Below, piece after piece: positions 25,168-36,009 of a DNA stretch of 36,009 bases. The stretch lies in the NCBI GenBank assembly GCA_016874795.1, contig VGTG01000048.1, forward strand, positions 1-36,009, written 5' to 3'. The notes beneath the pieces are model-generated. The model saw only the letters and a program-made list of their open reading frames with translations. It was not told the origin of the DNA and ran no database searches. The stretch comes from Deltaproteobacteria bacterium. Lineage in GTDB: Bacteria > Desulfobacterota > Binatia > UBA12015. The translations under genes were made by a program, and so were the position numbers. The stretch's first letter is position 1, and the number at the start of each line of letters is the position of its first letter.

Positions 25168-26574
25168 TCAAGACGCCTGCGACCGGGAAGCGCGGTCGAG
25201 CGCGTAGTAGGGCGTCTGCATCCCGTTCACCTCGAGGTGCTGCAGGTACCGCATGCCGAGGCGCTCGAGCACGCGGCGCGAGCCGAGGTTCGGCTCGTCG
25301 AACCCGCCGTGGATGCGCTCGAGCCCGAGCACCTCGAAGCCGTAGGTCAGGACCGCGCGCCCCGCCTCGGTCGCGAGCCCCTGTCCCCACTGCGTGCGAT
25401 CGAGGCTGTAGAGGATCTCGACCCGGTCCGTTCCCGGCACGTTCCGCAGGCCGCACACGCCGACGAGATCGCGCGAGCCGGCGCGGCGCAGGCCCCAGAG
25501 CGCGAAGCCCTTCTCGGCGTGGTCCTTCCGGCTCTGCGCCGCGACCTCTGCGACGGTCTCGAGCGGCACGGGGAGGTCGTCCCAGAGGTAGAGGCGGACG
25601 TCGGGCGCGTTCCAGTGACGGTAGAGCGCGGGCACGTCGCTCTTCCCGATCGGCTCGTACGAGAGGCGCGCGCTCCGCGGCGAAGCGACGCCGCCCGGCA
25701 CGACATCGGCGTGGCGGACGAGCTCGATCCCCTGCTCTTCCACGAGCCTTCGGATCGCGGGCGACGTGAGCGCCGCGAGCTCGCCCGCGTGATCGTAGCC
25801 CGGCATGCGGCGCCGCATCTCGGGCGTCGCGGACTCCGCGGGATGGCAGTAGAGCTCGCTCGTCCCGCGCGGCAACGTCGGAAACAGTGCGCGCAGATAC
25901 CGCTCGTCGCAGTGCCCCGTCTGGTGCAGACCGAACACCGGCTCGATCGTGACGACGCCGATCTCCGCGAGTCGCCTCTTCGCCCGCGCCGCGAGCGCGC
26001 GGAACACCGCCGCCTCGAGCCCCTTCCGCACGCGATGCCGGCGATCGTACGCGAGGTTCTGCAGGAGCGGATCGTGCGTCGAGCGGATCACGCGAATGCC
26101 GAGCTCGCCCGCGAGGTCCGCGAGCACGTCGAGCACGGTCGGATGGAGGTGCACGTTCAGATGCCCGTCGACGTGGTCGAGCGGCAGCCCCGTCGCACGG
26201 AACGCTTCGAGCTGCGCGCGGATCTCCGCGACGAGCGCGCGCCGGAACGACGAGCGGAAGAAGTACTCCATCCCGGCGAGGATCGGGTCGTCACGAAAGC
26301 GCCGATCGGGGAGGACGAGGCCCGCGGCAGTCGCCGGATCGGAGAGCGCGCTTCCCTGCACGAGCACGAGATGGAGACCGACGCCGAGACGCGGCTCGTC
26401 CTTCGCGAGCGCCACCGCCTCGGAGGCGTGCATCTCGGCGATCATCAAGCTCGTCGTCGTGAGGATGCCGTCGCGGTGCGCGCGGACGATCGCGCGGTTC
26501 ACCTCGGGAGCGAGCCCGAAATCGTCGCCGTTCACGACGAGCCGACGGCCGGCTCGTCCCGGCGCCGTGCTCAT
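25168..26574 (-). CDS. YdjC/HpnK-family deacetylase fused to GNAT
   Basis: A 468-residue fusion. Residues about 10-295 are a YdjC/ChbG/HpnK carbohydrate deacetylase with LVVNGDDFGLAPEVNRAIVR (metal-binding Asp), GVGLHLVLVQ and HVDGHLNVHLHPTVLD (metal-binding His). Residues about 305-465 are a RimJ/RimL-type acetyltransferase (LSYEPIGKSDVPALYRHWN, WGQGLATEAGRAVLTYGFEV, GGFDEPNLGSRRVLERLGM). An N-deacetylase joined to an N-acetyltransferase suggests swapping the acyl group on one amino sugar. No stop or frameshift separates the parts. The ATG overlaps the stop of the PntC-like gene (ATGA, 26571-26574), so it belongs to the phosphonate-type operon. Confidence 0.85.
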   Translation of the reverse strand: MSTAPGRAGRRLVVNGDDFGLAPEVNRAIVRAHRDGILTTTSLMIAEMHASEAVALAKDEPRLGVGLHLVLVQGSALSDPATAAGLVLPDRRFRDDPILAGMEYFFRSSFRRALVAEIRAQLEAFRATGLPLDHVDGHLNVHLHPTVLDVLADLAGELGIRVIRSTHDPLLQNLAYDRRHRVRKGLEAAVFRALAARAKRRLAEIGVVTIEPVFGLHQTGHCDERYLRALFPTLPRGTSELYCHPAESATPEMRRRMPGYDHAGELAALTSPAIRRLVEEQGIELVRHADVVPGGVASPRSARLSYEPIGKSDVPALYRHWNAPDVRLYLWDDLPVPLETVAEVAAQSRKDHAEKGFALWGLRRAGSRDLVGVCGLRNVPGTDRVEILYSLDRTQWGQGLATEAGRAVLTYGFEVLGLERIHGGFDEPNLGSRRVLERLGMRYLQHLEVNGMQTPYYALDRASRSQAS

Positions 26575-27299
26575 GCCTCTTCGGTCCCCACGGCGAGCGC
26601 GCGAGCGCGCTCCAGGTCCTCGGGGAAGTCGATCTCCGTCCACGCGAGGTCGTCGGCGGGCTCGAAGCCGACCTCGACGCGCGCGAGAAGCTCCGGATAG
26701 ACCTCCTCGTGCTCGAGGTCGACGTCGCCGCGCTCGACGCGCTCCGCGAGAAGACCGAGGAGCACGCGGCTCGCTTCGGCGGAAAGACGAAGGAAGCCGA
26801 TGGACTCGCCGAGCTGGTCGTACGCGCCGCGCGGAACGCGTGCGATGTCGACGACGCGCTCGCCGCGCACCATGAGCATCTGCTCCTCGCCGGTCGCTTC
26901 CGCGCTGCCGTCGAGCAGGAAGCAGCTCTCGTGCGCCGAGCCGACGAGCCGCGCGATCATCTCGTCCGGCCCGAAGACGTCTGCGTCCATCACGAGGACG
27001 GGGCGATCCGCTTCGAGATGCTTGCGCGCCGTCCAGAGCGACAGGATCGCGCCGCGCCGGTAATCGGGATTCCGCAGGATCTCGACGCCCGCCGCGCCGG
27101 CGAAGAGCGCTTCGATGTGCTCCGCGCCCCAGCCGACGACGATCACGATTCGCTCGACACCGGTCGCGCGGAGCTGGCGGACGAGCCGGCCGAGGAGCGT
27201 CTCGCTGCGGACCTGGAGAAGGGCCTTCGGACGCTCTCCGAGCTCGGCGCCGAAGCGCCTGCCGACGCCGGCAGCGAGAATGATCGCGGTGGGCTTCAC
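26571..27299 (-). CDS. PntC-like (aminoethylphosphonate) cytidylyltransferase
   Basis: A 242-residue nucleotidyltransferase. AIILAAGVGRRFGAELGERP, then KALLQV, is the nucleotide loop; VEILRNPDYRRGAILSLWTA, PVLVMDADVFGP (catalytic Asp) and LGESIGFLRLS follow, and it ends with WTEIDFPEDLERARAL. This pattern is that of the phosphocholine/2-aminoethylphosphonate cytidylyltransferase (LicC/PntC) group. Next to phnW, CTP plus aminoethylphosphonate to CMP-aminoethylphosphonate is the best guess. I use GTG 27299 because the fold starts at once; a GTG at 27368 overlaps the lipoprotein stop as GTGA and would add 23 unrelated residues. A general sugar nucleotidyltransferase cannot be excluded. Confidence 0.72.
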   Translation of the reverse strand: MKPTAIILAAGVGRRFGAELGERPKALLQVRSETLLGRLVRQLRATGVERIVIVVGWGAEHIEALFAGAAGVEILRNPDYRRGAILSLWTARKHLEADRPVLVMDADVFGPDEMIARLVGSAHESCFLLDGSAEATGEEQMLMVRGERVVDIARVPRGAYDQLGESIGFLRLSAEASRVLLGLLAERVERGDVDLEHEEVYPELLARVEVGFEPADDLAWTEIDFPEDLERARALAVGTEEA

Positions 27300-27364
27300 G
27301 CAAGCACACGATCGCGGTGACGGAGTGCGCTCGCAAGCGTGCCACGCCGCTTCCCCCGCCTTCG

Positions 27365-27475
27365 TCACGGGTTGGTCGCCTCTGCATGTTCAATTGAATG
27401 GCCTTTCACCGCGTGGCAGCCTGCCCCCGTCAAGGACAGAACGAGCGCGAGTCCGATGAGCGCCCCGGCGCGCAA
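27365..27475 (-). CDS. Small entericidin-like lipoprotein
   Basis: A 36-residue reading frame in the gap between phnW and the cytidylyltransferase. It starts at TTG 27475, two bases after the phnW stop, and encodes RAGALIGLALVLSLTGAGC followed by HAVKGHSIEHAE. LTGAGC is a canonical lipobox, and the short hydrophilic remainder with V-K-G resembles entericidin-type peptides. No Shine-Dalgarno is visible, so expression would rely on coupling to phnW. A perfect TTCAATTGAA palindrome lies inside it (27389-27398). Confidence 0.5.
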   Translation of the reverse strand: MRAGALIGLALVLSLTGAGCHAVKGHSIEHAEATNP

Positions 27476-27477
27476 GC

Positions 27478-28548
27478 TCAGCCGATCGCGCGCGCCAGCG
27501 CCCCGAGGAACCGCTCGAAGTCCGAGCGCTGGAGGGCACCCATGTTCGCGACGCGGAAGATCTCCCGTCCGAGCGCCCCCTGCCCTTCGTAGATCACGAA
27601 GCCCTCGGCCTTCAGGCGATCGTGCAGCGTCTCGTAGACGACCCCGCCCGGCAACCGGAGCGACGTGATCGAGCTCGAGCGGAGCGGCTCGGGCAGGAGC
27701 ATCTCGAGCCCGAGCGCCTCGAAGCCGGCGCGAAGCTGCCCCGCCGCGCGCGCGTAGCGCTCGACGCGCGCCGCGACCGTCTCCTCGAGGAGCTCGCTCA
27801 GCGCCTCGTCGAGCGCGTAGAGGATCTGCACCGCGGCCGTGAACGCGACGCTCCGGCGTGCGTGCGCGGCGTGATGTCGCGGCAGGTGCAGGTACACGGT
27901 CCGCTGCGGGAGCGCGGCCATGCGCTCCATCTCGCTCCGTCGCGCAAGGACGAAGCCGATTCCCGGAAGCCCCTGGACGCACTTGTTCGCGACGCCGACG
28001 CAGATCCCGACGCCCCACGCGTCGAGCTCGATCGGATCGCCCGCGAGCCCGCTGATCGAGTCGACGAGGAGGACGCGGCCCGCGTCGCGCACGACGCGCC
28101 CGACCTCCTGCACCGGATTGACGAGCCCCGTCGTCGTCTCGTGGTGCACGAGCGCCACGACCTCGATCGCCGGATCCGCCGCGAGCGCACGCGCGATCGC
28201 CTGCGGATCGGGACGCTCCGTCCAGGCACACGCGAGCGAGACCACCTCGATGGCGTGCGCCTCCGCCATCTCGCGGATGCGCTCTCCGTAGACGCCGTTC
28301 ACGACGACGAGGAGCTTCCTCCCGGGCGTCACCGCGGAGCTGACGGCCGCCTCGAGCGCGAGCGTGCCCGACCCGGTGAGCGGCACCGCGACCCAGTCCG
28401 CGTCCGGCGCAAACGCTCGAACGAGCTTCGTGCAGACCGAGTCGAGCAGATCCGAAAACTCGGGCTCGCGATGGCAGAGATCGCCGCGTGCGAGCGCCGC
28501 GGTGACGCGCGGGCTCACGTTGACGGGACCCGGATTGAGGAGGATCAA
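27478..28548 (-). CDS. phnW: 2-aminoethylphosphonate-pyruvate transaminase
   Basis: A 356-residue class V PLP enzyme. The start LILLNPGPVNVSPRVTAALA, then CHREPEFSDLLDSV, is close to the PhnW signature. VALVHHETTTGLVNP, VDSISGLAGDPIEL (PLP-ring Asp) and GVANKCVQGLPGIGFVLAR (Schiff-base Lys) complete the site. In this operon it would make 2-aminoethylphosphonate from phosphonoacetaldehyde and alanine, running in the biosynthetic direction. The start is TTG 28548, overlapping the TGA of the decarboxylase beta gene as TTGA; no ATG or GTG lies near the conserved N-terminus. A taurine-type transaminase acting on sulfoacetaldehyde is the main alternative. Confidence 0.82.
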   Translation of the reverse strand: MILLNPGPVNVSPRVTAALARGDLCHREPEFSDLLDSVCTKLVRAFAPDADWVAVPLTGSGTLALEAAVSSAVTPGRKLLVVVNGVYGERIREMAEAHAIEVVSLACAWTERPDPQAIARALAADPAIEVVALVHHETTTGLVNPVQEVGRVVRDAGRVLLVDSISGLAGDPIELDAWGVGICVGVANKCVQGLPGIGFVLARRSEMERMAALPQRTVYLHLPRHHAAHARRSVAFTAAVQILYALDEALSELLEETVAARVERYARAAGQLRAGFEALGLEMLLPEPLRSSSITSLRLPGGVVYETLHDRLKAEGFVIYEGQGALGREIFRVANMGALQRSDFERFLGALARAIG

Positions 28549-29123
28549 CGTCGGCTCGCGAGCGCACCGCGCATGCGCGCGGTCATCTCCTCGGGCGTGA
28601 ACGGGATGCGCGGCGCGGGCGCGCCCGACTCCGGCTCCGTCTCGACGAGGAGGAAGCCCGGTCCGTCGGCCGCGGCGAACGCGGCGAGCTCGCGCTCGAT
28701 CGCACTCGCGTCGCGCACGCGCTCGACGCGCCGATAGCCCGAAGCGGCCGCGATCTCCTCGAGCGCGACGCGGCCGGAGATCGTCGGCTGGTTCCCCGTG
28801 CTCGCGTAGACGCCGTTGTCGACCACGACGTGCACGAAGCGGCGCGGTGCCGCGACCGCGATCATCGGGAGCGATCCGAGGTTCATCAGCACGTTGCCGT
28901 CGCCGTCGAGCACCGCGACCGGCTGCTCCGGCTTCGCGAGCGCGATCCCGAGCCCGATCGACGAGGCGAGCCCCATCGAGCCGATCATGTAGAAGCACTC
29001 CGGCCGGTCGCCGAGCGCGCACGCCCAGCGCGAGAGGAAGCCGTTCGCGCAAACGAGCGCGTGGCCCGAGAGAGGGGGCAGGATCGCGCGGACTGCGGCC
29101 TCGGTGGTGAGCTTGGTCGTCAC
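28545..29123 (-). CDS. Phosphonopyruvate/sulfopyruvate decarboxylase, beta chain
   Basis: A 192-residue TPP-binding half-enzyme. ALVCANGFLSRWACALGDRP, then CFYMIGSMGLASSIGLGIAL, leads to the TPP motif AVLDGDGNVLMNLGSL, and VVVDNGVYASTGNQPTIS follows. These are typical of the C-terminal domain of phosphonopyruvate decarboxylase and of ComE. GTG 29123 overlaps the alpha-chain stop (GTGA), which fixes the start and implies coupled translation in equal amounts. Confidence 0.82.
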   Translation of the reverse strand: MTTKLTTEAAVRAILPPLSGHALVCANGFLSRWACALGDRPECFYMIGSMGLASSIGLGIALAKPEQPVAVLDGDGNVLMNLGSLPMIAVAAPRRFVHVVVDNGVYASTGNQPTISGRVALEEIAAASGYRRVERVRDASAIERELAAFAAADGPGFLLVETEPESGAPAPRIPFTPEEMTARMRGALASRR

Positions 29124-29626
29124 GCGAAGACTCCCGGGGGAACGACGAGCGCGACGGGCCGGCCCGTCTCGTCGAAGCGCTCGCGCGCCCATGCGACGTC
29201 GGCGTCGAGCTCTCGCTCGCCGAGCGTGCGCCAGGGAATCTGGTACGCGTCGAGGATCGTCGGCATCACGCGTCCCATCACGAGGTGCTCAGGCGCGTCC
29301 GTTCCGCCCTGCCCTCGCCACGTGATCACGAGCAAGCACGGCATCTCGTAGATCTGCTGCAGCGAGCCGAGGGCGTTCAGCGACACGCCGAAGCCGGAGT
29401 TCTGCATCAGGACGACCGGGCGCTTTCCCGCGAGCGCCGCGCCGGCCGCCAGGCCGAGTGCGGCGTCCTCGCGCGTCTCGGGGACGTAGCCGTCCGCTTC
29501 GAGCGCGCGGAGGACCGAGGCGATGAGCGAGCACGGAACGCCGGTGAAGAAATCGAAGCCGGCGGCACGGAGCGAAGCTGCGAAGTCCGCTCCCGCGAAG
29601 CGTGCGTTCGAGGACGGCGCGCTCAT
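29120..29626 (-). CDS. Phosphonopyruvate/sulfopyruvate decarboxylase, alpha chain
   Basis: A 168-residue protein matching the N-terminal (pyrimidine-binding) domain of phosphonopyruvate decarboxylase or ComD. Visible are AAGFDFFTGVPCSLIASVLR, TREDAALGLAAGAALAGKRP with the TPP-activating Glu, LMQNSGFGVSLNALGSLQQI and PCLLVITWRGQGGTDAPEHL. With the beta chain it would turn phosphonopyruvate into phosphonoacetaldehyde, or sulfopyruvate into sulfoacetaldehyde. Bacterial phosphonate pathways usually have one fused chain of about 380 residues; here the two domains are separate genes. ATG 29626 overlaps the Rieske stop (ATGA). Confidence 0.82.
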   Translation of the reverse strand: MSAPSSNARFAGADFAASLRAAGFDFFTGVPCSLIASVLRALEADGYVPETREDAALGLAAGAALAGKRPVVLMQNSGFGVSLNALGSLQQIYEMPCLLVITWRGQGGTDAPEHLVMGRVMPTILDAYQIPWRTLGERELDADVAWARERFDETGRPVALVVPPGVFA

Positions 29627-29937
29627 GCCTCCGCCTCGACGTCGATCGAAACGACGTCGCCCTCCACGCAGACCGCATAAACCGTCGCGCGTCCGGGGCG
29701 CGCGCTCTCTCCCGTGGCGAGAGAGAACGACCAGCCGTGCATCGGGCAGCGCACGACCGGCCCCGCTTCGGTCTCCTGAAGCGTGCCGCGGATCAGCGGC
29801 CCGCCGCGGTGCGGGCAGCGGTTCCCGAGCGCGTAGATGCGCCCGTCCACGTTGAAGACGGCGATCTCGAGGTCGCCCGCCTCGACGAGACGGCGCGCCC
29901 CGGCGGGCAGGCTCGCGAAATCGATCTCGATCGGCAT
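29623..29937 (-). CDS. Rieske-type [2Fe-2S] ferredoxin
   Basis: A 104-residue single Rieske domain. Both cluster ligands are present: NRCPHRGGPLIRG (C-x-H) and VVRCPMHGWSFSLATGE (C-x-x-H). It starts MPIEIDFASLPAGARRL and ends with a strand YAVCVEGDVVSIDV. No signal peptide or membrane segment is visible, so it is a soluble electron carrier. As first gene of the minus-strand operon it may feed electrons to an oxygenase that modifies the phosphonate, though no oxygenase is seen nearby. The operon promoter should lie within 29938-30185. Confidence 0.88.
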   Translation of the reverse strand: MPIEIDFASLPAGARRLVEAGDLEIAVFNVDGRIYALGNRCPHRGGPLIRGTLQETEAGPVVRCPMHGWSFSLATGESARPGRATVYAVCVEGDVVSIDVEAEA

Positions 29938-30185
29938 GTCTCCTCGCGACGATCGCGGTGGCAGCGCCCGGGCGCAAGCATCCCAAGATCTTGCGACTTC
30001 CCCGCACGTGCGGTCCCGGAAGATCATGTCTCGAGAGCCATGTCGGCTTCGCTCGCTTGCTCGACCAATCTCCATCTTGCCCGCCCCCGGGGGCCCCTCT
30101 ACCGTGGCGGGGTCTCGTCTGCCCGAGCAGGCTGCCCGGCGGCTTCTTCTCCATCGATCACAGTCCCCGTCACGGAAGCTGAGCC
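29938..30185. promoter_or_regulatory. Divergent intergenic region
   Basis: This 248-bp stretch separates the minus-strand phosphonate-type operon from the plus-strand beta-helix gene and must hold both promoters. I cannot pick out convincing -35/-10 pairs in this base composition. Near 30085-30120 there are G/C runs (CCCGCCCCCGGGGGCCCC) able to form a hairpin. No gene is seen. Confidence 0.5.
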
Positions 30186-30889
30186 GTGAATCGAACGCAT
30201 CGCCCCTGGTTTCGCGCGACGTGCTTGATCCTGAGCTACCTGCTCTACTTCGATCTGCTCGCGTCGTCGGCGCTCCAGTGGGTCGAGCGACGAGGCTTCT
30301 CCGGTGCCGACGCCTCCGCCAGCGCGTCGGCTTCCCCCGAGGAACCAAGTGCTCCAGAACGCGTCGCGGAAGCGTCGCGGACGATCTTCGTCAGCGCGAC
30401 CGATCCCACCTGCGGCGGTCGATCTCCGTGCTTTGCGCAGATCCAGAAGGCGATCGACGCCGCGATCCCAGGCGACCACATCGTCGTCTTCCCCGGCCTC
30501 TACCCGGAGCGCCTGCGCATCATCGAGAAGAACCGGCACGCGGCCGCCTCGGAAGCCGACCGGATCAAGCTCTACGCCGATCCGCTGGCACCCGTCGGCA
30601 GCGTCGTCGTCGGACCGGCCGAGGACCAGCCGTGCTCGCTGCGTCCCGCTCTCGAGGTCCTGCGCTCGAAGTTCGTCACCATCGAGGGCTTCGACTTCCG
30701 CGACGCCGGCGCGCGCGGCGTGGTCCTCCGCGGCGAGGGCGGGACGAACCAGGGCATCCACGTCCTGCGGAACCGCATCCACGGCGAGCGCGACGTGCGG
30801 TGCAGCGGCGGCGTCACCGTGTGGCAGGGCAACGCCGACGCGGTGATCGCGAACAACCTGATCTACGCGAACCGCGGCGAAGGAATTCC
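30186..30889 (+). pseudogene. Parallel beta-helix protein, 5' part, split by insertion
   Basis: A GTG start at 30186 gives a membrane or signal helix (ATCLILSYLLYFDLLASSAL), a Ser/Ala-rich linker, then a right-handed parallel beta-helix: FVSATDPTCGGRSPCFAQIQ, KAIDAAIPGDHIVVFPGLYP, FVTIEGFDFRDAGARGVVLR and AVIANNLIYANRGEGI. Such proteins are usually secreted polysaccharide lyases or binders. The frame is broken after GEGI at GGAATTCC (30882-30889), where the ISL3-type element starts; the element supplies a false tail and a stop at 30927-30929. The remainder of the gene lies at 35646-35895 in the matching frame. Confidence 0.88.
30882..30889. repeat. Left target-site duplication
   Basis: GGAATTCC directly precedes the left inverted repeat. 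The right-hand copy at 35646-35653 is GGAATTCG, a 7 of 8 match. Eight base pairs is the usual duplication length for ISL3 elements. Confidence 0.75.
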
Positions 30890-30917
30890 GGCTCTTCTCG
30901 GAAGAGTGTGGGTCGAA
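30890..30917 (+). repeat. Left terminal inverted repeat (IRL)
   Basis: GGCTCTTCTCGG, then AAGA, then GTGTGGGTCGAA. It matches the right end at 22 of 28 positions. The GGCTCTT-type tip is typical of ISL3 ends. It lies about 110 bp before the transposase start. Confidence 0.8.
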
Positions 30918-31002
30918 GGCGGGCCCTGAGCGCCCGGAAACCCGCGCCAGGAGCGAACGAACGCGCGGTTGAACCCCACCGAAAACCTGGCACGATTCCG
31001 CG

Positions 31003-32228
31003 ATGCGGCGAAGAGGGGCTGGGCGGCTGTCAGATACGTATCGATTCCCCGGGTTCCGCCCGCTCGCGAGGGTGGTAGGGATCTTCGGGAAACCAAGGGC
31101 GCGGGTCGTGACCCTCGTCCGGCGCTCAAAAAAACTCGCTGCGGTGCCTGCGGTCGGGCGCGGCGCGGATTCTACGACCGGACGATGCGCCGCGTCCGCG
31201 ACCTCTCCTGTGGCGACGCGCACGTGTTCCTCGAGTTCGAGGTTCGGCGCGTAGCCTGCCCGGCCTGCCGCGCCGTGAAGCGGGAGCGCCTGCCTTTCCT
31301 TGCTGCGAATCCGTTCTACACCAAGCGCTTCGCCTTCTATGTCGGGGCGCGCTGTCGCTCATCCTCCATCAAGGACGTCGCCGCCGAGCTCGGTCTGCAC
31401 TGGGCGGCCGTGAAGGAACTCGAGAAGGAGTACATGCGCGAGCAGCTCCGCCGGGTCGGCACGCCGGCACCGAGGATCATCGGCATCGACGAGGTGTCGA
31501 TCCGGAAAGGAAAGGTGTTCCGCATCGTGGTGAGCGATCTCGTCCGACATCGTCCGATCTGGTTTGGAGGGAGGGACCGCACCGAGCCGAGCCTCGAGGA
31601 GTTCTTTGCTCGGCTTGGACCGAAGAAGGCTGCTCGCATCCGCCTCGTCGTGATGGACATGTGGCGTCCGTTCTACAACGCGGCGCAGAACTGCGTGCCG
31701 CATGCCGCGATCCTCTTCGGCAAGTTCCACGTGATGCGTCAGCTCGGCGAGGCGCTCGATGAGGTGCGGCGCAGCGAGTACCGCCGGGTCTCGGGCGGCG
31801 AGCGGCGGTTCATCAAGGGGCAGCGCTACAACCTGCTCGCACACCGGGAGAATCTCACGCTCGACGGTCGCAAGGCGCTCAGGACCCTGCTCGCCGCGAA
31901 CAAGCGCCTGAACACGGCCTACCTGCTCAAGGAGTCCTTCGGGCAACTCTGGGACTACCGCCGCGAGGTGTGGGCGAGGCGGTTCTTCGAGAATTGGCGC
32001 GCCGCGCTTCGCTGGCAGCGCCTCCAGCCCTTCGAGAAGTTCGCCGCGATGATCGAGCGCCATTGGGATGGGATCGCGGCCTACTGCGATCCCGAGAACA
32101 AGGTCTCGCTCGGCTTCGTCGAGGGCCTGAACAACAAGATCCGGGTCATCCAGCGACGCGCCTACGGCCTCCGCGACGAGGAATACCTCCGGCTGAAGGT
32201 GCTGACGGCGACGCTTCCGAAGAGATAG
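31003..32228 (+). CDS. ISL3-family transposase, probable -1 frameshift product
   Basis: A DDE-type transposase. From ATG 31003 the frame reads RLSDTYRFPGFRPLARVVGI and VVTLVRRSKK, then meets A7 at 31128-31134 (codons TCA AAA AAA, the A-AAA-AAA slip site). A -1 slip continues as TRCGACGRARRGF, the start of the zinc ribbon (CGAC...CPAC), and the long frame to 32228, giving about 408 residues. Catalytic segments are IIGIDEVSIRKG and VVMDMWRPFYNA; FGKFHVMRQLGEALDEVRRS, NLTLDGRKALRTLLAANKRL and FVEGLNNKIRVIQRRAYGLR are hallmarks of this ISL3 subgroup. Without slipping, the first frame ends at 31254. The long frame alone could start at TTG 30969, but that gives an N-terminus unlike a transposase. 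Confidence 0.88.
31128..31134 (+). promoter_or_regulatory. A7 slippery site for -1 frameshifting
   Basis: Seven adenines in an otherwise GC-rich gene, phased as A-AAA-AAA in the frame of ATG 31003. The frame on the left looks like protein before the site and the -1 frame after it. A GC-rich segment follows that could fold as a stimulator. A simple frameshift mutation or read error in the A run is the alternative. Confidence 0.6.
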
Positions 32229-32236
32229 CGCTCGCG

Positions 32237-32575
32237 TCATCGCAAGCCGCTGGGTCCTGTTCTCGGCACTCGGTCGACGGCGGGGACGAGCACGCGGACC
32301 ACGCGACGGCTCCGACAACGACAGGCTGGCCACGGCGGTCGCGACCGGACCTCCGCCACGGCAATGCCTTGCGCCAGCGCTCGCGATGCGAAGGACGGTG
32401 CCAGAAAACGCGGAGAGCCGGCAGCGAAGGCGAAGCCGCCACGTGGCAGGCGAGCGGCGCGCAGCCCGAGCGCGTCTTCGGCGAGGAGCCGTTGGCGGCC
32501 GCGGAACTCGATGAACCGGCCGACGGGGCAGAAGACCAGCACGCGATTGCCGGCGTACCGGGTCAGCTCGCGGTA
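32237..32575 (-). pseudogene. MutS-like (MSL) domain cut off from the RT by an amber codon
   Basis: Immediately after the RT stop (TAG 32576-32578), in the same frame, the sequence continues for 112 codons: YRELTRYAGNRVLVFCPVGR, FIEFRGRQRLLAEDALGLRA and GGFAFAAGSPRFLAPSFASR. The 'vlvF.vGrFiEf.g....a...LGLr' pattern resembles MutS domain I modules reported with DGR reverse transcriptases. A single C-to-T change (CAG to TAG) would explain the break. A GTG at 32542 could still start a shortened separate protein. It ends at TGA 32237-32239, 8 bp past the convergent transposase stop. Confidence 0.6.
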
Positions 32576-33823
32576 CTACGCCGCGAAGGTCGGCGCTCGG
32601 GCGAGGCGGACCGAAGACCACCGCGGCACGGGTCGCCAGGTCTCGTCCCGCGAGAAGAGCGCAGCGAGCCATGGCTCGCTGGACCAAACGGTCGTCCAGT
32701 CGCGCCGCGAAGCGCCGTGGCAGAGGTGGCCGGCGTAGGGGGCGAGTCGTGACCGGAGTCCCTCCATGCTCGCCTTTCCAGCGGAGCGTAGCTCGAGGAC
32801 TGTCGCGTTGCTCGGCCTGCTTGGCGACCGCGCTGCCGATGCCCACTCGTGCACCGTCCGGCGCAGGCGCCCGATGGTCGAATGGCGCGGCAGGCGATGG
32901 CTCCGGAACGTTCGCCAGCCGACGAAGTCGGCACCGCGCCCTGCGGGCTCGGGCTCGTGGGTGCCGGCCCGTAGAGCCAGGTGCAGGCGCTCGGCGAGGA
33001 ATCCCTCGATCTGCACGCGCCACTCTGCAAGCTCGCTCCGGTCCGGAGAGAGCAGCACGAGGTCGTCCACGTATCGGACGTAGGACTTCACGCGGAGCCG
33101 TCGCTTGACGAAGTGGTCGAGCTCGTTCAGGTAAACGTTTCCCCAGAACTGGCTCGTCAGGTTGCCGATCGGGAGCCCGCGCTGGTTCTCTTTGCCGAAG
33201 AGGCTCTTGCGGTCGGGCACGGGGTAGCCCGGCTCGCCGGGGCGACCTGCCGCGCGCGCCGCTCCGGGGCCGCGGGTGCGAAACACGTAGTCCCGCGTCG
33301 GATCGTGGAAGAGGATCGTGCGGGTGAGCCAGCGCACTTCCGGGTGGCGGCACGCGCGCGCGAGGATCTCGTAGAGCGTCTCCTTGTGAATGGAGGCAAA
33401 GAAGCTCGCCACGTCGAGCTTGAGCGCCCACGCCGGGCGGCGTCCGTTCGCCGTGACCTTGCGCAGGAGGTCCATCAGCCGGTCGCTCGCGGCGAGCGTG
33501 CCCTTGCCCTCGCGGCAGGCATAGGAGTCGTGGATGAACCGGCGCTCGAAGAGCGGCTCCTGCCAGGAGACCAGCAGGTGGTGCACGACCCGGTCACGGA
33601 AGCCCGCCGCGAAGACCTCGCGTGGCTTCGGGCCGTCGGTCACGAAGCAGACCGAGCGCCCTGGCCGGTAGGTGTGCTCGCGCAGCTCCTTCTGCAGCGC
33701 GAGCAGGTTCGCCTCGGCGTCGACCTCGAAGCGAAGCGCGTTGATCGTATTGCGCTTGCCCCGGCGACAGCGGCGGTACTGCCGCCAGAGCTCCGCGAAG
33801 GAGTACGGGTCGGGGCCGATCAC
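32576..33823 (-). CDS. DGR reverse transcriptase
   Basis: A 415-residue reverse transcriptase that copies the template repeat RNA into cDNA with errors at adenines. N-terminal PYSFAELWRQYRRCRRGKRN, then ELREHTYRPG, is typical of DGR enzymes. Motif A is WALKLDVASFFASI (Asp about 137), the DGR-specific motif 4 is GLPIGNLTSQFWGNVYLNEL (about 216-235), and the active-site YVDD is at about 251-254 in YVRYVDDLVLLS. It lacks the maturase and endonuclease parts of group II introns. The GTG start at 33823 overlaps the TGA closing the template-repeat frame (GTGA). The C-terminal 110 residues are Arg/Ser-rich, and a MutS-like domain follows after an amber codon. Confidence 0.93.
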   Translation of the reverse strand: MIGPDPYSFAELWRQYRRCRRGKRNTINALRFEVDAEANLLALQKELREHTYRPGRSVCFVTDGPKPREVFAAGFRDRVVHHLLVSWQEPLFERRFIHDSYACREGKGTLAASDRLMDLLRKVTANGRRPAWALKLDVASFFASIHKETLYEILARACRHPEVRWLTRTILFHDPTRDYVFRTRGPGAARAAGRPGEPGYPVPDRKSLFGKENQRGLPIGNLTSQFWGNVYLNELDHFVKRRLRVKSYVRYVDDLVLLSPDRSELAEWRVQIEGFLAERLHLALRAGTHEPEPAGRGADFVGWRTFRSHRLPRHSTIGRLRRTVHEWASAARSPSRPSNATVLELRSAGKASMEGLRSRLAPYAGHLCHGASRRDWTTVWSSEPWLAALFSRDETWRPVPRWSSVRLARAPTFAA

Positions 33824-33961
33824 GAGCCGCCGCGCACCGCACGGACGTAGTTGTCGTTGCTCTTGTTGTCGTTGTTCACGTTGCCGTCGTTGAAGTTCAC
33901 GTTCCAGGCGTTGTCCGGGTCGTTGGAGTTGGTAGACGACGACCAGTAGAACGACGACACG
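33820..33961 (-). ncRNA. DGR template repeat (TR)
   Basis: This 142-bp segment aligns without gaps to the variable repeat 34641-34782. On the minus strand it is rich in AAC and GAC codons; read in the target's frame it gives SSTNSNDPDNAWNVNFNDGN and NNDNKSNDNYV, the usual adenine-loaded template. Of 24 differences from the variable repeat, 20 are at template adenines. The 3' 28 bp (33820-33847) are identical and GC-rich, as expected for the initiation-of-mutagenic-homing segment. It lies between avd and the RT gene, the classic place, and would be transcribed as part of the structured template RNA. Confidence 0.93.
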
Positions 33962-34131
33962 CTCGCCCCCTCCACTTGCTCCCGCGGGGCTTCCACCACC
34001 TGGATGGGCCGTCCGCGGACCCGGGCGGCTGGCCCCGCCGAGACGGGGGAAGCACGCCCTTGTGCCTTCGCCCCTTCGAGGGCTCCGGCGCCGTCGCCCG
34101 AACCCGGGCGGGAGGAGGACCTCGTGATCAT
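33820..34131 (-). other. Open frame spanning the template repeat
   Basis: A 103-codon frame starts at ATG 34131, overlapping the avd stop (ATGA), and ends at TGA overlapping the RT GTG (GTGA). Its first 57 codons are Arg/Gly/Pro-rich spacer; the rest is the template repeat in the target frame. It may simply carry ribosomes from avd to RT (translational coupling through the template), or it may be chance. No domain other than the repeat is seen. Confidence 0.5.
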
Positions 34132-34532
34132 GGCGCGCTCGGTTCCGCTATCCCGCCGGGAATCGCGGGCCGACTCTGGCCATGCCCGCCGCGCTGATGG
34201 CGGAGCCAGCCCTCGTTCTGCCGGGCGATCTCCACCACCAGCGTGACCGCGTGCTGAAAGCTCGAGAGCTTCTGGAAGGCTTGCCCATCGTGGGCCAGCC
34301 GCAGCAGTGCCTTCAGCTCCTCCAGCTCCTCACGCAGCTCGAGCAGCACCGGAGCCCTCTCCCGGCGCGAGTTCGCGCGCACGACGAGCCTCAAGCTCCG
34401 CCGTGCCGCCTCGCGCAGATCCGCGCCGAGAGAGTACTTGTGGTAGCGGGGAAAGCCGCGCACGACCTGGTCCAGGTAGAGACAGAGATCGTAGGTGGCC
34501 TTGTAGATGGGAAGATGCTCGCTCTGCGCCAT
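34128..34532 (-). CDS. avd: DGR accessory variability determinant Avd
   Basis: A 134-residue four-helix-bundle protein that forms a barrel-like pentamer and binds the RT and template RNA in characterised DGRs. The start MAQSEHLPIYKATYDLCLYL is diagnostic; HKYSLGADLREAARRSLRLV, RANSRRERAPVLLELREELE and LLRLAHDGQAFQKLSSFQHA form the remaining helices, rich in Arg/Lys as needed for RNA binding. ATG 34532 has a GGGGGAAG run 4 nt upstream; an in-frame GTG at 34562 would add 10 residues. The last 20 residues (SRPAIPGGIAEPSAP end) are unstructured. Confidence 0.9.
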   Translation of the reverse strand: MAQSEHLPIYKATYDLCLYLDQVVRGFPRYHKYSLGADLREAARRSLRLVVRANSRRERAPVLLELREELEELKALLRLAHDGQAFQKLSSFQHAVTLVVEIARQNEGWLRHQRGGHGQSRPAIPGGIAEPSAP

Positions 34533-34565
34533 CGCTTCCCCCACCCCGGTGGCCTTCGCCACGCG

Positions 34566-34668
34566 AGAATCGCGACCGGCCGGCGCTCACGCGCCGGCCG
34601 GAATCAAAGGATCAACAGACGAAGGATCAAAGGGTCAAGCTCACGAGCCGCCGCGCACCGCACGGACG
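34566..34668. repeat. 103-bp direct repeat, copy 1
   Basis: Identical to 35896-35998 (offset 1330). It contains the DGR hairpin, the AAGGATCAA direct repeats and the conserved end of the variable repeat. Confidence 0.95.
34576..34601. repeat. DGR hairpin downstream of variable repeat 1
   Basis: CCGGCCGGCGC, loop TCAC, GCGCCGGCCGG: an exact 11-bp stem with a 4-nt loop, located about 40 nt past the target gene's stop. Short-stem, tetraloop hairpins in this position are known to aid target recognition in DGRs. Between stop and hairpin lie direct repeats AAGGATCAA (twice) and AGGGTCAAG. Confidence 0.88.
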
Positions 34669-34782
34669 GGGCCGGCGGTGCTCTTGTTGTTGTAGCCCAC
34701 GAAGCCGTCGTAGAAGCCCACGCCCCAGGCTTGGCCCGGGACGCTGGAGATGGTAGACGACGACCAGTACAACGACGACACG
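34641..34782 (-). repeat. DGR variable repeat 1 (VR1)
   Basis: 142 bp at the 3' end of the target gene, aligned to the template repeat without gaps. Twenty of 24 differences are at template adenines, changing mainly AAC/GAC codons (N to I, S, G, Y, F, T; D to V, G, A). The four other differences are at template positions 33849, 33870, 33910 and 33949. The final 28 bp are unchanged. Confidence 0.93.
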
Positions 34783-35363
34783 GTAAATCCTGGAATCGAC
34801 GTGCACGGGTTCATGGTGCAGCTCCCGTGCTGCGCGTCCAGCACCGATCGCAGCTCGCCGATCGTCGGCAGTCGCCAGTCGCACTTGCCCGCAAAGCAGC
34901 CCGTCGTCGTGCTACCGTCCGCCGATACGCCTCCGTTGAGCGTCCCGAGGAACGCCGTGAACGCGGTCCCGTTCGGCGTCGTCCCGCCGGACACAGTGTT
35001 CCAGGTGTACTCGTTGTCCTTGTCGTGCACGCTCGCGTCGTCGGTCTTCAACTCCCACTGAAGCCCGTTGTTCAGGTCGGTCGCAGTGCCGTCGGTGTTG
35101 TCGAGCCAGCGGCACGATGTGCTCTTCTTCGCCGCCGCCGCGTCCGCCTTTGTGATCGACTTGTCGAACTTCTCCTCGCACGTCGCCACGTCCGGCGTCT
35201 TGCCGAGGACCTCTTTGCGCCGCTCGCCCTCGATGCAGAAGGCCCGCTTGCGCAGCGCGTTCAGCTTCGCTGCCTGGCACTCCTCCTCGGCGGTCGGCGC
35301 GGCTCCCGCCGCGCTCGCCAGCGCCAGTGACAAGACCAGGGTCCAGATCGTCGTTCGCATCAT
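34641..35363 (-). CDS. DGR target: secreted DUF1566 (Lcl-type) protein
   Basis: A 240-residue exported protein. The signal peptide is MRTTIWTLVLSLALASAAGA. A helical region with CQAAKLNALRKRAFCIEGER and CEEKFDKSITKADAAAAKKS follows. The rest is a DUF1566 (Lcl C-terminal-like) domain: NGLQWELKTD, CDWRLPTIGELRSVLDAQHG and SSLYWSSSTISSVPGQAWGV. The last 46 residues are the variable repeat, ending VRAVRGGS, and should form the changeable ligand-binding face. AAGGAGAAC lies 4 nt before ATG 35363. Surface-exposed DUF1566 proteins are known DGR targets. Four Cys outside the repeat suggest disulfides. Confidence 0.92.
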   Translation of the reverse strand: MMRTTIWTLVLSLALASAAGAAPTAEEECQAAKLNALRKRAFCIEGERRKEVLGKTPDVATCEEKFDKSITKADAAAAKKSTSCRWLDNTDGTATDLNNGLQWELKTDDASVHDKDNEYTWNTVSGGTTPNGTAFTAFLGTLNGGVSADGSTTTGCFAGKCDWRLPTIGELRSVLDAQHGSCTMNPCTSIPGFTVSSLYWSSSTISSVPGQAWGVGFYDGFVGYNNKSTAGPVRAVRGGS

Positions 35364-35617
35364 CCAGTTCTCCTTTCACCCGGCTCGAATCGTGGGTCCG
35401 TACTTCTATCGCTACGGCACCGTGCCGGGGAAGTCATGAAATGAACTGAACCCTCGAACGTCGCACCGCGCTGGCCGGGGTTGAGACGAAGCCCGGCGAG
35501 TCAAGTGCACGGTGCCCAGGAGATTCGACGCTCGAGCGCGGTCCCGACCGTGGCTCGGCGAGTCCAAGCAGCCTCCCGGCGCGGACCCCAGCGCCAGTGG
35601 GACGAATTTCGCGCCGA
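35364..35617. other. Right end of the element, no gene seen
   Basis: About 250 bp between the target gene start and the right inverted repeat. It must hold the promoter of the minus-strand DGR operon, though no clear -35/-10 pair stands out. The target's Shine-Dalgarno lies at 35367-35376. Confidence 0.5.
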
Positions 35618-35645
35618 TTCCACCCACACAAACCCGAGAAGACCC
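35618..35645 (-). repeat. Right terminal inverted repeat (IRR)
   Basis: On the minus strand it reads GGGTCTTCTCGG, GTTT, GTGTGGGTGGAA, matching the left end at 22 of 28 positions. It is followed on the plus strand by the duplicated GGAATTCG. Confidence 0.8.
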
Positions 35646-35653
35646 GGAATTCG
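35646..35653. repeat. Right target-site duplication
   Basis: GGAATTCG, matching the left copy GGAATTCC (30882-30889) at 7 of 8 bases. Confidence 0.75.
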
Positions 35654-35895
35654 CATCAAGGACGGCGGGACGGGAACGCACTACGTCGTCTCGAACACGA
35701 TCTTCGGGAACCGCCGCGGCGGCATCGAGCTGACGCGCAACCACGCCGTCTCCCTACGGTGGTGGTCCCGCCGCCTTTCCGGTTGCTCGGGACGCCGCAC
35801 GCGGGATAGACGATCCGGTGGGATCGCTCGGCTGTCCGGGCTCCAACTTCCGCGAGCGCATTCTGACAAATCGGCCGTTCATGGTGACTACGCTC
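35646..35895 (+). pseudogene. Parallel beta-helix protein, 3' part
   Basis: Continues the gene broken at 30889. Joined at GGA ATT, the frame reads ANRGEGI, then RIKDGGTGTHYVVSNTIFGN and RRGGIELTRNHAV, a normal succession of beta-helix rungs. Near 35754 protein-like sequence moves to another frame (YGGGPAAFPVARDAARGIDD, then GSLGCPGSNFRERIL), so a frameshift or small deletion has also accumulated. It then runs into the second DGR repeat at 35896. Confidence 0.78.
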
Positions 35896-35998
35896 AGAAT
35901 CGCGACCGGCCGGCGCTCACGCGCCGGCCGGAATCAAAGGATCAACAGACGAAGGATCAAAGGGTCAAGCTCACGAGCCGCCGCGCACCGCACGGACG
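35896..35998. repeat. 103-bp direct repeat, copy 2
   Basis: Identical to 34566-34668. It lies outside the right inverted repeat of the element, so it is not explained by the single insertion. Confidence 0.95.
35906..35931. repeat. DGR hairpin downstream of variable repeat 2
   Basis: Same 11-bp stem and TCAC loop as at 34576-34601, standing the same distance past a VRAVRGGS stop on the minus strand. Confidence 0.88.
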
Positions 35999-36009
35999 TA
36001 GTTGACTTC
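35971..36009 (-). CDS. Second DGR target gene, 3' end only (VR2)
   Basis: The minus strand from the right edge reads EVNYVRAVRGGS and stop. The 39 bp align to the template repeat 33820-33858 with three differences, two of them at template adenines. VR2 is closer to the template than VR1 at 33848-33853, so it is an independently diversified copy. Most of the gene lies beyond the window. Confidence 0.8.
   Translation of the reverse strand, partial: EVNYVRAVRGGS

Follow-up and report, generated by a model that had tools for sequence, protein, structure and literature searches.

The window analysed here is a 36,009-nucleotide stretch of DNA, the full contig C48 (VGTG01000048.1) of a draft genome of a Deltaproteobacteria bacterium of the class Binatia (assembly GCA_016874795.1; 360 contigs, 6.27 Mb). 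Near its right side, positions 30890-35645 form a unit of 4756 bp that is bordered by a pair of ISL3-type inverted repeats (IRs), as found at the ends of insertion sequences (ISs) of this family. Between these ends lie an ISL3 transposase gene on the plus strand and, on the opposite strand, a complete diversity-generating retroelement (DGR), which comprises a target gene with its variable region (VR), a hairpin, the accessory gene bAvd, a template repeat (TR) and a reverse transcriptase (RT) gene (Table 1). An earlier first-pass annotation, which was made from the sequence alone, had described a transposase and a whole DGR between one ISL3 end pair, and this anatomy was borne out by the ends, the Pfam matches and the TR/VR comparison.

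Table 1. Features of the DGR-containing unit and of the interrupted gene around it (window coordinates).
Feature	Position	Strand	Evidence or remark
Host gene, left part (right-handed beta-helix-like protein)	30186-30889	+	Sub-threshold Pfam Beta_helix match (E 0.00084); G010 and G011 homologues at 44-49% identity
Left copy of 8-bp direct repeat, GGAATTCC	30882-30889		7/8 match with 35646-35653
Left ISL3-type IR	30890-30917	+	22/28 match to right IR
ISL3 transposase	31003-32228	+	N-terminus in the 31003 frame; A7 run 31128-31134; main DDE part read as in listed open reading frame (ORF) 30969-32228
Small ORF 3' of RT, convergent with transposase	32237-32542	-	tblastn matches in near DGR loci
DGR reverse transcriptase, 415 aa	32576-33823	-	RVT_1 E 7.8e-13
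TR	33820-33961	-	142-nt match to VR
bAvd accessory gene, 144 aa	34128-34562	-	Pfam bAvd E 1.2e-15
GC-rich hairpin, 11-bp stem, downstream of VR	34576-34601		Inverted repeat; fold z -6.09
Target gene, 240 aa, C-terminal Lcl_C domain	34641-35363	-	Lcl_C E 3.3e-21
Variable region VR1 of target	34641-34782	-	142-nt match to TR
IS right-end segment	35444-35645	+	99% over 202 bp at C98; outer part within 99-bp exact match at C69 end
Right ISL3-type IR	35618-35645	-	22/28 match to left IR
Right copy of 8-bp direct repeat, GGAATTCG	35646-35653		7/8 match with 30882-30889
Host gene, right part	35646-35755	+	Goes on in contig C127, which overlaps 35656-35755

The transposase was assigned to DDE_Tnp_ISL3 (PF01610; E 9.8e-67; 225.7 bits versus a cut-off of 23; profile positions 1-239 of 240), with further Pfam matches to HTH_Tnp_ISL3 and Zn_ribbon_ISL3. 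The start at 30969, which was set mechanically, is not the probable start of the protein, as a conserved N-terminus was found in another frame from 31003, before a run of seven adenines (A7). In all six ISL3 copies examined, the N-terminus (31003-31254 in the window) and the main part occupy two frames that meet at an A6 or A7 run. Such a layout points to programmed -1 frameshifting or to transcript slippage in the ISL3 subgroup concerned.

The opposite strand contains the features by which DGRs are recognised, namely a DGR-type RT, an adenine-biased TR/VR pair and an Avd-type accessory protein. The TR and the VR differ at 24 of 142 positions, and 20 of these mismatches are located at TR adenines (hypergeometric P 4e-11). 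The RT translation contains LPIGNLTSQFWGN and YVDD, motifs that we take to be of the DGR type. An SQ dipeptide of DGR RTs is named in passages of PMC3521204. The window RT was also found to group with the RTs of other loci that have Avd and a target. None of 200 shuffled sequences folded as well as the hairpin. An Rfam search of positions 30000-36009 returned no match. The N-terminus of the target resembles a signal peptide when read by eye.

A small ORF 3' of the RT gene ends 9 bp from the transposase stop codon and had tblastn matches in all ten near DGR loci. When 21 RT loci were compared, it was detected only at L046, which is one of these ten, and at none of the 20 more distant ones. No Pfam match was obtained for it at a threshold of 0.01, and its label as MutS-like ("MSL") is presumptive. 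A match to this "MSL" protein in genome G004 (L064:6630-6821) was not taken as a DGR, because there was no RT match beside it. The order target-Avd-RT-small ORF on one strand, as seen in the window, was shared by eight of the ten near loci, and the other two (L046 and L091) had no target match and lie on contigs that start close to the Avd match. Partial target matches between Avd and RT, probably representing the TR, were observed at L070, L092, L093 and L094, and those away from the Avd-RT interval at L092 and L095 are possible extra targets.

With regard to the borders of the unit, the match between the two IRs was compared with a random control of 60 first-order Markov sequences of 36 kb, in which the left end was matched at best at 18.5 of 28 positions on average and at no more than 21. 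No further place in the whole window reached at least 18/28 to either the left or the right 28-mer; the first-pass annotation, too, had seen only one pair of ISL3-type ends. When the end sequences of other ISL3 copies were used as probes, further window matches stayed at 18-19/28, which is the chance level. The GG.TCTTC start of the ends is common to other ISL3 ends, and the right end was matched by independent ones, such as the C170/C127 left end of the same genome (23/28) and a right end from G004 (22/28). The 8-bp direct repeat at the two borders of the unit, with seven of eight bases matching, was also confirmed.

Stronger evidence than the IR match comes from the host gene in which the unit is located. 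By joining the two flanks with a single copy of the 8-bp repeat and extending them into contig C127, a frame was obtained that is open across all 902 codons fetched, while keeping both copies would break it. The joined gene is collinear with homologues from the sister genomes G010 and G011, and the three alignments shown (L077, L078 and L074, from these genomes) cross the junction without a gap there. Thus, with one frame running across the joined flanks and gap-free homologue alignments, the two ends bracket a single insertion, and the host gene proved as reconstructable as the first-pass annotation had proposed.

The same reconstruction bears on the possibility that an ISL3 element simply landed beside a resident DGR and that the right IR is accidental. 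Such neighbours do occur: on contig C258 of G012, a genome of the same family as the window genome, a related DGR also has an adjacent ISL3, but there the DGR lies outside the IS ends, as the right end of an ordinary ISL3 is located 2 bp ahead of the start codon of the target (L063 6480-6530), and a DGR in G013 that is 87-93% identical to that of G012 has no IS at this place. In the window, however, the right end is no accident, since it recurs as an IS end in the genome (at C69 and C98), and the same host gene is present on both outer sides. Chance neighbourhood is largely refuted by the reconstruction of the host gene and is very improbable. As a separate observation, the ISL3 end so close to the G012 target might affect the expression of that target.

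The position of the right end is another feature that distinguishes the unit from its relatives. Five complete relatives from other genomes (1367-1479 bp) are passenger-free and too short for passengers of such a kind, and their right end is located 44-153 bp past the last matched transposase codon. Likewise, in a related ISL3 group on five contigs of the window genome, with 84-90% identity along 87-200 bp at the 3' end of the transposase, the right IR follows soon after the transposase stop. No such inner right end could be recognised after the stop at 32228 in the window: the best matches of six ISL3 end probes within 32201-32650 were 14-15/28, a level that right-type matches reached at 28 to 291 window places and that corresponds to chance. 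An intact ISL3 copy of about 1.5 kb with its right end just past 32228, which the first-pass annotation had named as a finding that would speak against a carried DGR, was therefore not seen for the window copy. Its only right end is that at 35645, which sets the size of the unit.

Additional copies of the right-end segment were detected elsewhere in the genome. At C98 its left neighbour differs from that of the window copy, and at C69 the 99-bp exact match is followed by a different flank. Since right ends with different flanks are thus present in the window, C98 and C69, the IS type has been at three sites and has probably moved. No DGR was in view at the C69 or C98 right ends, which cannot be shown to carry one. 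No module boundary at 35444 was deduced from the C98 copy, because it may be truncated there and one truncation would suffice. The gene to the left of the C98 segment resembled, by eye only, a pyrroloquinoline quinone-type dehydrogenase.

The occurrence of the 35444-35645 segment at C98 without an adjoining transposase could also indicate a composite relic, in which two ISL3 copies of the same orientation once flanked the DGR and deletion took away both the left copy's right end and the greater part of the right copy, leaving the left end with the transposase, the DGR and a solo 202-bp right end. The window's ends, which are not a unique pair, are compatible with this history, and the ordinary ISL3 of a related group directly upstream of the DGR target in G012 indicates that such neighbours arise. 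On the other hand, the direct repeat shows, together with the host gene that is restored, that a single insertion is delimited by precisely these two ends (although a composite could insert by its outer ends), and nothing left over from an inner right end could be recognised. Instead of the two complete IS copies of a composite transposon, only one transposase gene was found, with an end segment of about 200 bp on the right side. A composite relic, which may or may not still move, is hence regarded as unlikely.

Taken together, positions 30890-35645 probably represent an ISL3-family "transporter IS" with a whole DGR as its passenger, in that genes unrelated to transposition (32229 to 35443) are found between one pair of IS ends. 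Structural support for such a DGR-carrying ISL3 unit is good. Its mobility as a unit is plausible and, like frameshifting, present activity and the manner in which the DGR was captured, is inferred. In this arrangement, the left end and the transposase are followed by the whole opposite-strand DGR, which replaces the usual short 3' non-coding end, and then by the right end. By binding to both ends, the transposase, which is probably produced by a -1 frameshift at the A7 run, would mobilise the 4.76-kb unit and generate an 8-bp target duplication; the present insertion site is the beta-helix-like gene that the unit interrupts. In DGRs in general, the TR RNA is copied with errors at adenines and the product replaces the VR. 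Inside the unit, the TR RNA would accordingly be copied by the RT with Avd, and the complementary DNA would take the place of the VR in the linked, lectin-like target, with the conserved 3' end of the VR and the hairpin as guides.

Several observations weigh against the carriage of the DGR by the IS. The whole unit is known from one copy only, and a genome search detected no second copy of the left end in the same genome. The 22/28 match of the IRs, taken alone, is only just beyond the random maximum of 21, and the ends are not clearly a private pair, considering that the left end of another IS matches the right end at 23/28. In addition, the 8-bp direct repeat was absent from all five IS relatives (1 to 4 of 8 bases match), so that the repeat in the window depends on the host-gene argument. 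A piece of a DGR was also found outside the right end: at positions 35896-36009, the 3' tail of the target and the hairpin recur as an exact copy of 103 bp, followed by a second VR-like start and the contig end. This second tail may be another DGR target. Finally, the genome is a draft of 360 contigs in which the 103-bp exact repeat occurs both inside the DGR (34566-34668) and at the contig end (35896-35998), and the right-end junction is a branch common to C69.

These last features, together with the overlaps of 99 and 100 bp with C69 and C127 on the right side, speak for an assembly error, in which the joint between the DGR and the IS right end, or that to the host flank, would be false. However, the left junction, the transposase and the RT appeared to be single-copy in genome searches (40 of 268 and 40 of 314 first-look candidates scored), in which no second copy of the transposase or the RT was found, shorter ISL3 matches apart. 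Moreover, the order of the DGR is the same as in related loci, both flanks belong to one gene in frame, and no repeat like the 103-bp one was detected from the left junction to the avd gene. Among the contig pairs checked, others share 127, 128 and 175 bp at their ends. These overlaps, taken with those of 99 and 100 bp, would suggest a graph assembly of short reads at multiple k values, and the final k may have been above 103. Misassembly of the unit is therefore unlikely, even more so than a composite relic.

The distribution of both components was investigated in larger genome collections. In 148 genomes of the class, relatives of the RT (E <=1e-60) were found in nine, relatives of the transposase (E <=1e-100) in seven and both in three; in two of these three, the window genome and G012, the two genes share a contig. 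When the phylum was sampled evenly with 395 genomes, RT relatives were present in six and transposase relatives in nine (E <=1e-60), and at none of the 16 new phylum loci (flanks of about 1.5 kb or less) did the two occur together. This transposase was likewise absent from 17 RT loci of a species-genome collection, several of which are cut by contig ends. The window thus holds the single IR-to-IR copy with a DGR that was found in searches of the 148 class and 395 phylum genomes, and, on this evidence, the DGR relatives detected in other genomes of the class do not lie within this IS. The suggestion of the first-pass annotation that the arrangement gives the DGR an immediate way to move goes too far in view of this single copy and of the C69 and C98 right ends without a demonstrable DGR.

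In an RT tree of 31 entries, the window RT was placed in a clade of 11, ten of which (itself included) are from its own class and one from a metagenome-assembled genome labelled Gammaproteobacteria. The nearest fork (82/59) makes no clear case for or against recent transfer. No relative of the RT or the transposase was found in viral contigs by pattern-based scans. In plasmids, the best transposase relative was 66% identical, on a Candidatus Manganitrophus plasmid (among the best 10 of 4296 records), with no DGR among the six annotated features shown. The best-ranked plasmid match of the RT was 37% identical (among the best 15 of 75), and all 75 records were below 60%.

ISPpu12 is presumably an ISL3 element with passenger genes. 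Passages of PMC6305408 report ISL3 elements with passenger genes and 8-bp direct repeats, including ISPst2a/b (2985 bp, two passenger genes; Table 3 of that paper). Similar to the window unit, ISPst2 has an ISL3 transposase and passengers between short IRs starting with GG, as well as 8-bp direct repeats; its passengers, however, are a putative permease and an ArsR-family regulator rather than a full DGR (PMC6305408). As regards DGRs in transposons of the DDE type, one in Vibrio sp. RC586 occupies the cargo position of Tn7-type sequences (PMC3521204, section 7), which is comparable to the window in that the DGR is where a DDE transposon carries its cargo. Tn7, however, is a multi-gene transposon, and what is reported is vicinity to Tn7-type sequences, whereas the window unit is an IS that has one transposase and both of its ends and that interrupts a gene. 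The hankyphage, a Mu-like transposable phage of Bacteroides, also has a DGR inside an element with a MuA-like transposase, but it is a phage instead of an IS and its DGR target is a tail fibre (PMC12135933). Furthermore, IS and MITE-like (miniature inverted-repeat transposable element) repeats have been reported near the DGRs of Thiohalocapsa PB-PSB1 and cyanobacteria, and a lone RT lies between transposase genes in Anabaena sp. 90 (PMC10907252, PMC7517822). The authors discuss translocation of DGR parts as cargo; in contrast to the window unit, the sections of these two papers considered here describe no intact DGR between one IR pair.

In the open-licence literature, no report was found of a DGR together with ISL3 (subscription papers and other wordings were outside the search), and the parts of sources returned for a DGR, an insertion sequence and a passenger described no such unit. 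As far as these searches go, a DGR in a simple IS is new, and to this extent the novelty assumed by the first-pass annotation stands; for DDE elements generally it goes too far, and the precedents (Tn7-type, Mu-like and ISL3 passengers) limit the novelty.

Phages, plasmids and transposons have been put forward as DGR vectors (PMC3521204, PMC10907252), and in 2012 DGRs were already described as "hitchhiking" with them (PMC3521204). The travel of DGRs between genomes is still argued mostly from their neighbourhood. A DGR with its own target inside one IS end pair at a reconstructable site represents a minimal testable vector, consisting of two ends and one transposase in 4.8 kb. Such an arrangement could let a mutation cassette, which mutates one of its own genes, move as a unit. 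It would also offer targeted mutagenesis a compact natural vehicle; even if immobile, it documents the capture of a DGR by an IS. More tentatively, and with less than even confidence, it may be proposed that this is a self-mobile hypermutation transposon, in which the ISL3 unit moves the DGR with its own target, so that jumps would relocate an autonomous protein-diversifying system and perhaps seed extra target 3' tails beside the insertion site. The seeded tails in this proposal refer to the second tail with hairpin just past the right end.

Beyond the right end, only 110 bp of the host gene lie within the window before a dispersed repeat begins at about 35751-35756. This repeat (35751-35895, about 146 bp) has constant ends and variable flanks, and 25 further matches in the genome were listed, some of them partial. 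Contig C127 continues the host gene without the repeat, and two versions are therefore probably present in the population. The first bases of the repeat, TCCCT, coincide with host bases at the junction. An integron reading of the repeat was rejected because of its constant ends with different flanks and because it adjoins apparently ordinary genes in the five contigs with ORFs listed, as judged without a family search. No likeness of its ends to attC was seen by eye, no attC test being run. At one other copy, in G000:C224, a weak Avd-like stretch (L032:9-362; 31% identity) ends just before the repeat. To the left of the host gene, the genes at positions 26571-29678 encode domains of an NTP transferase, a class-V aminotransferase and a split TPP enzyme, a set that we take to resemble a 2-aminoethylphosphonate pathway.

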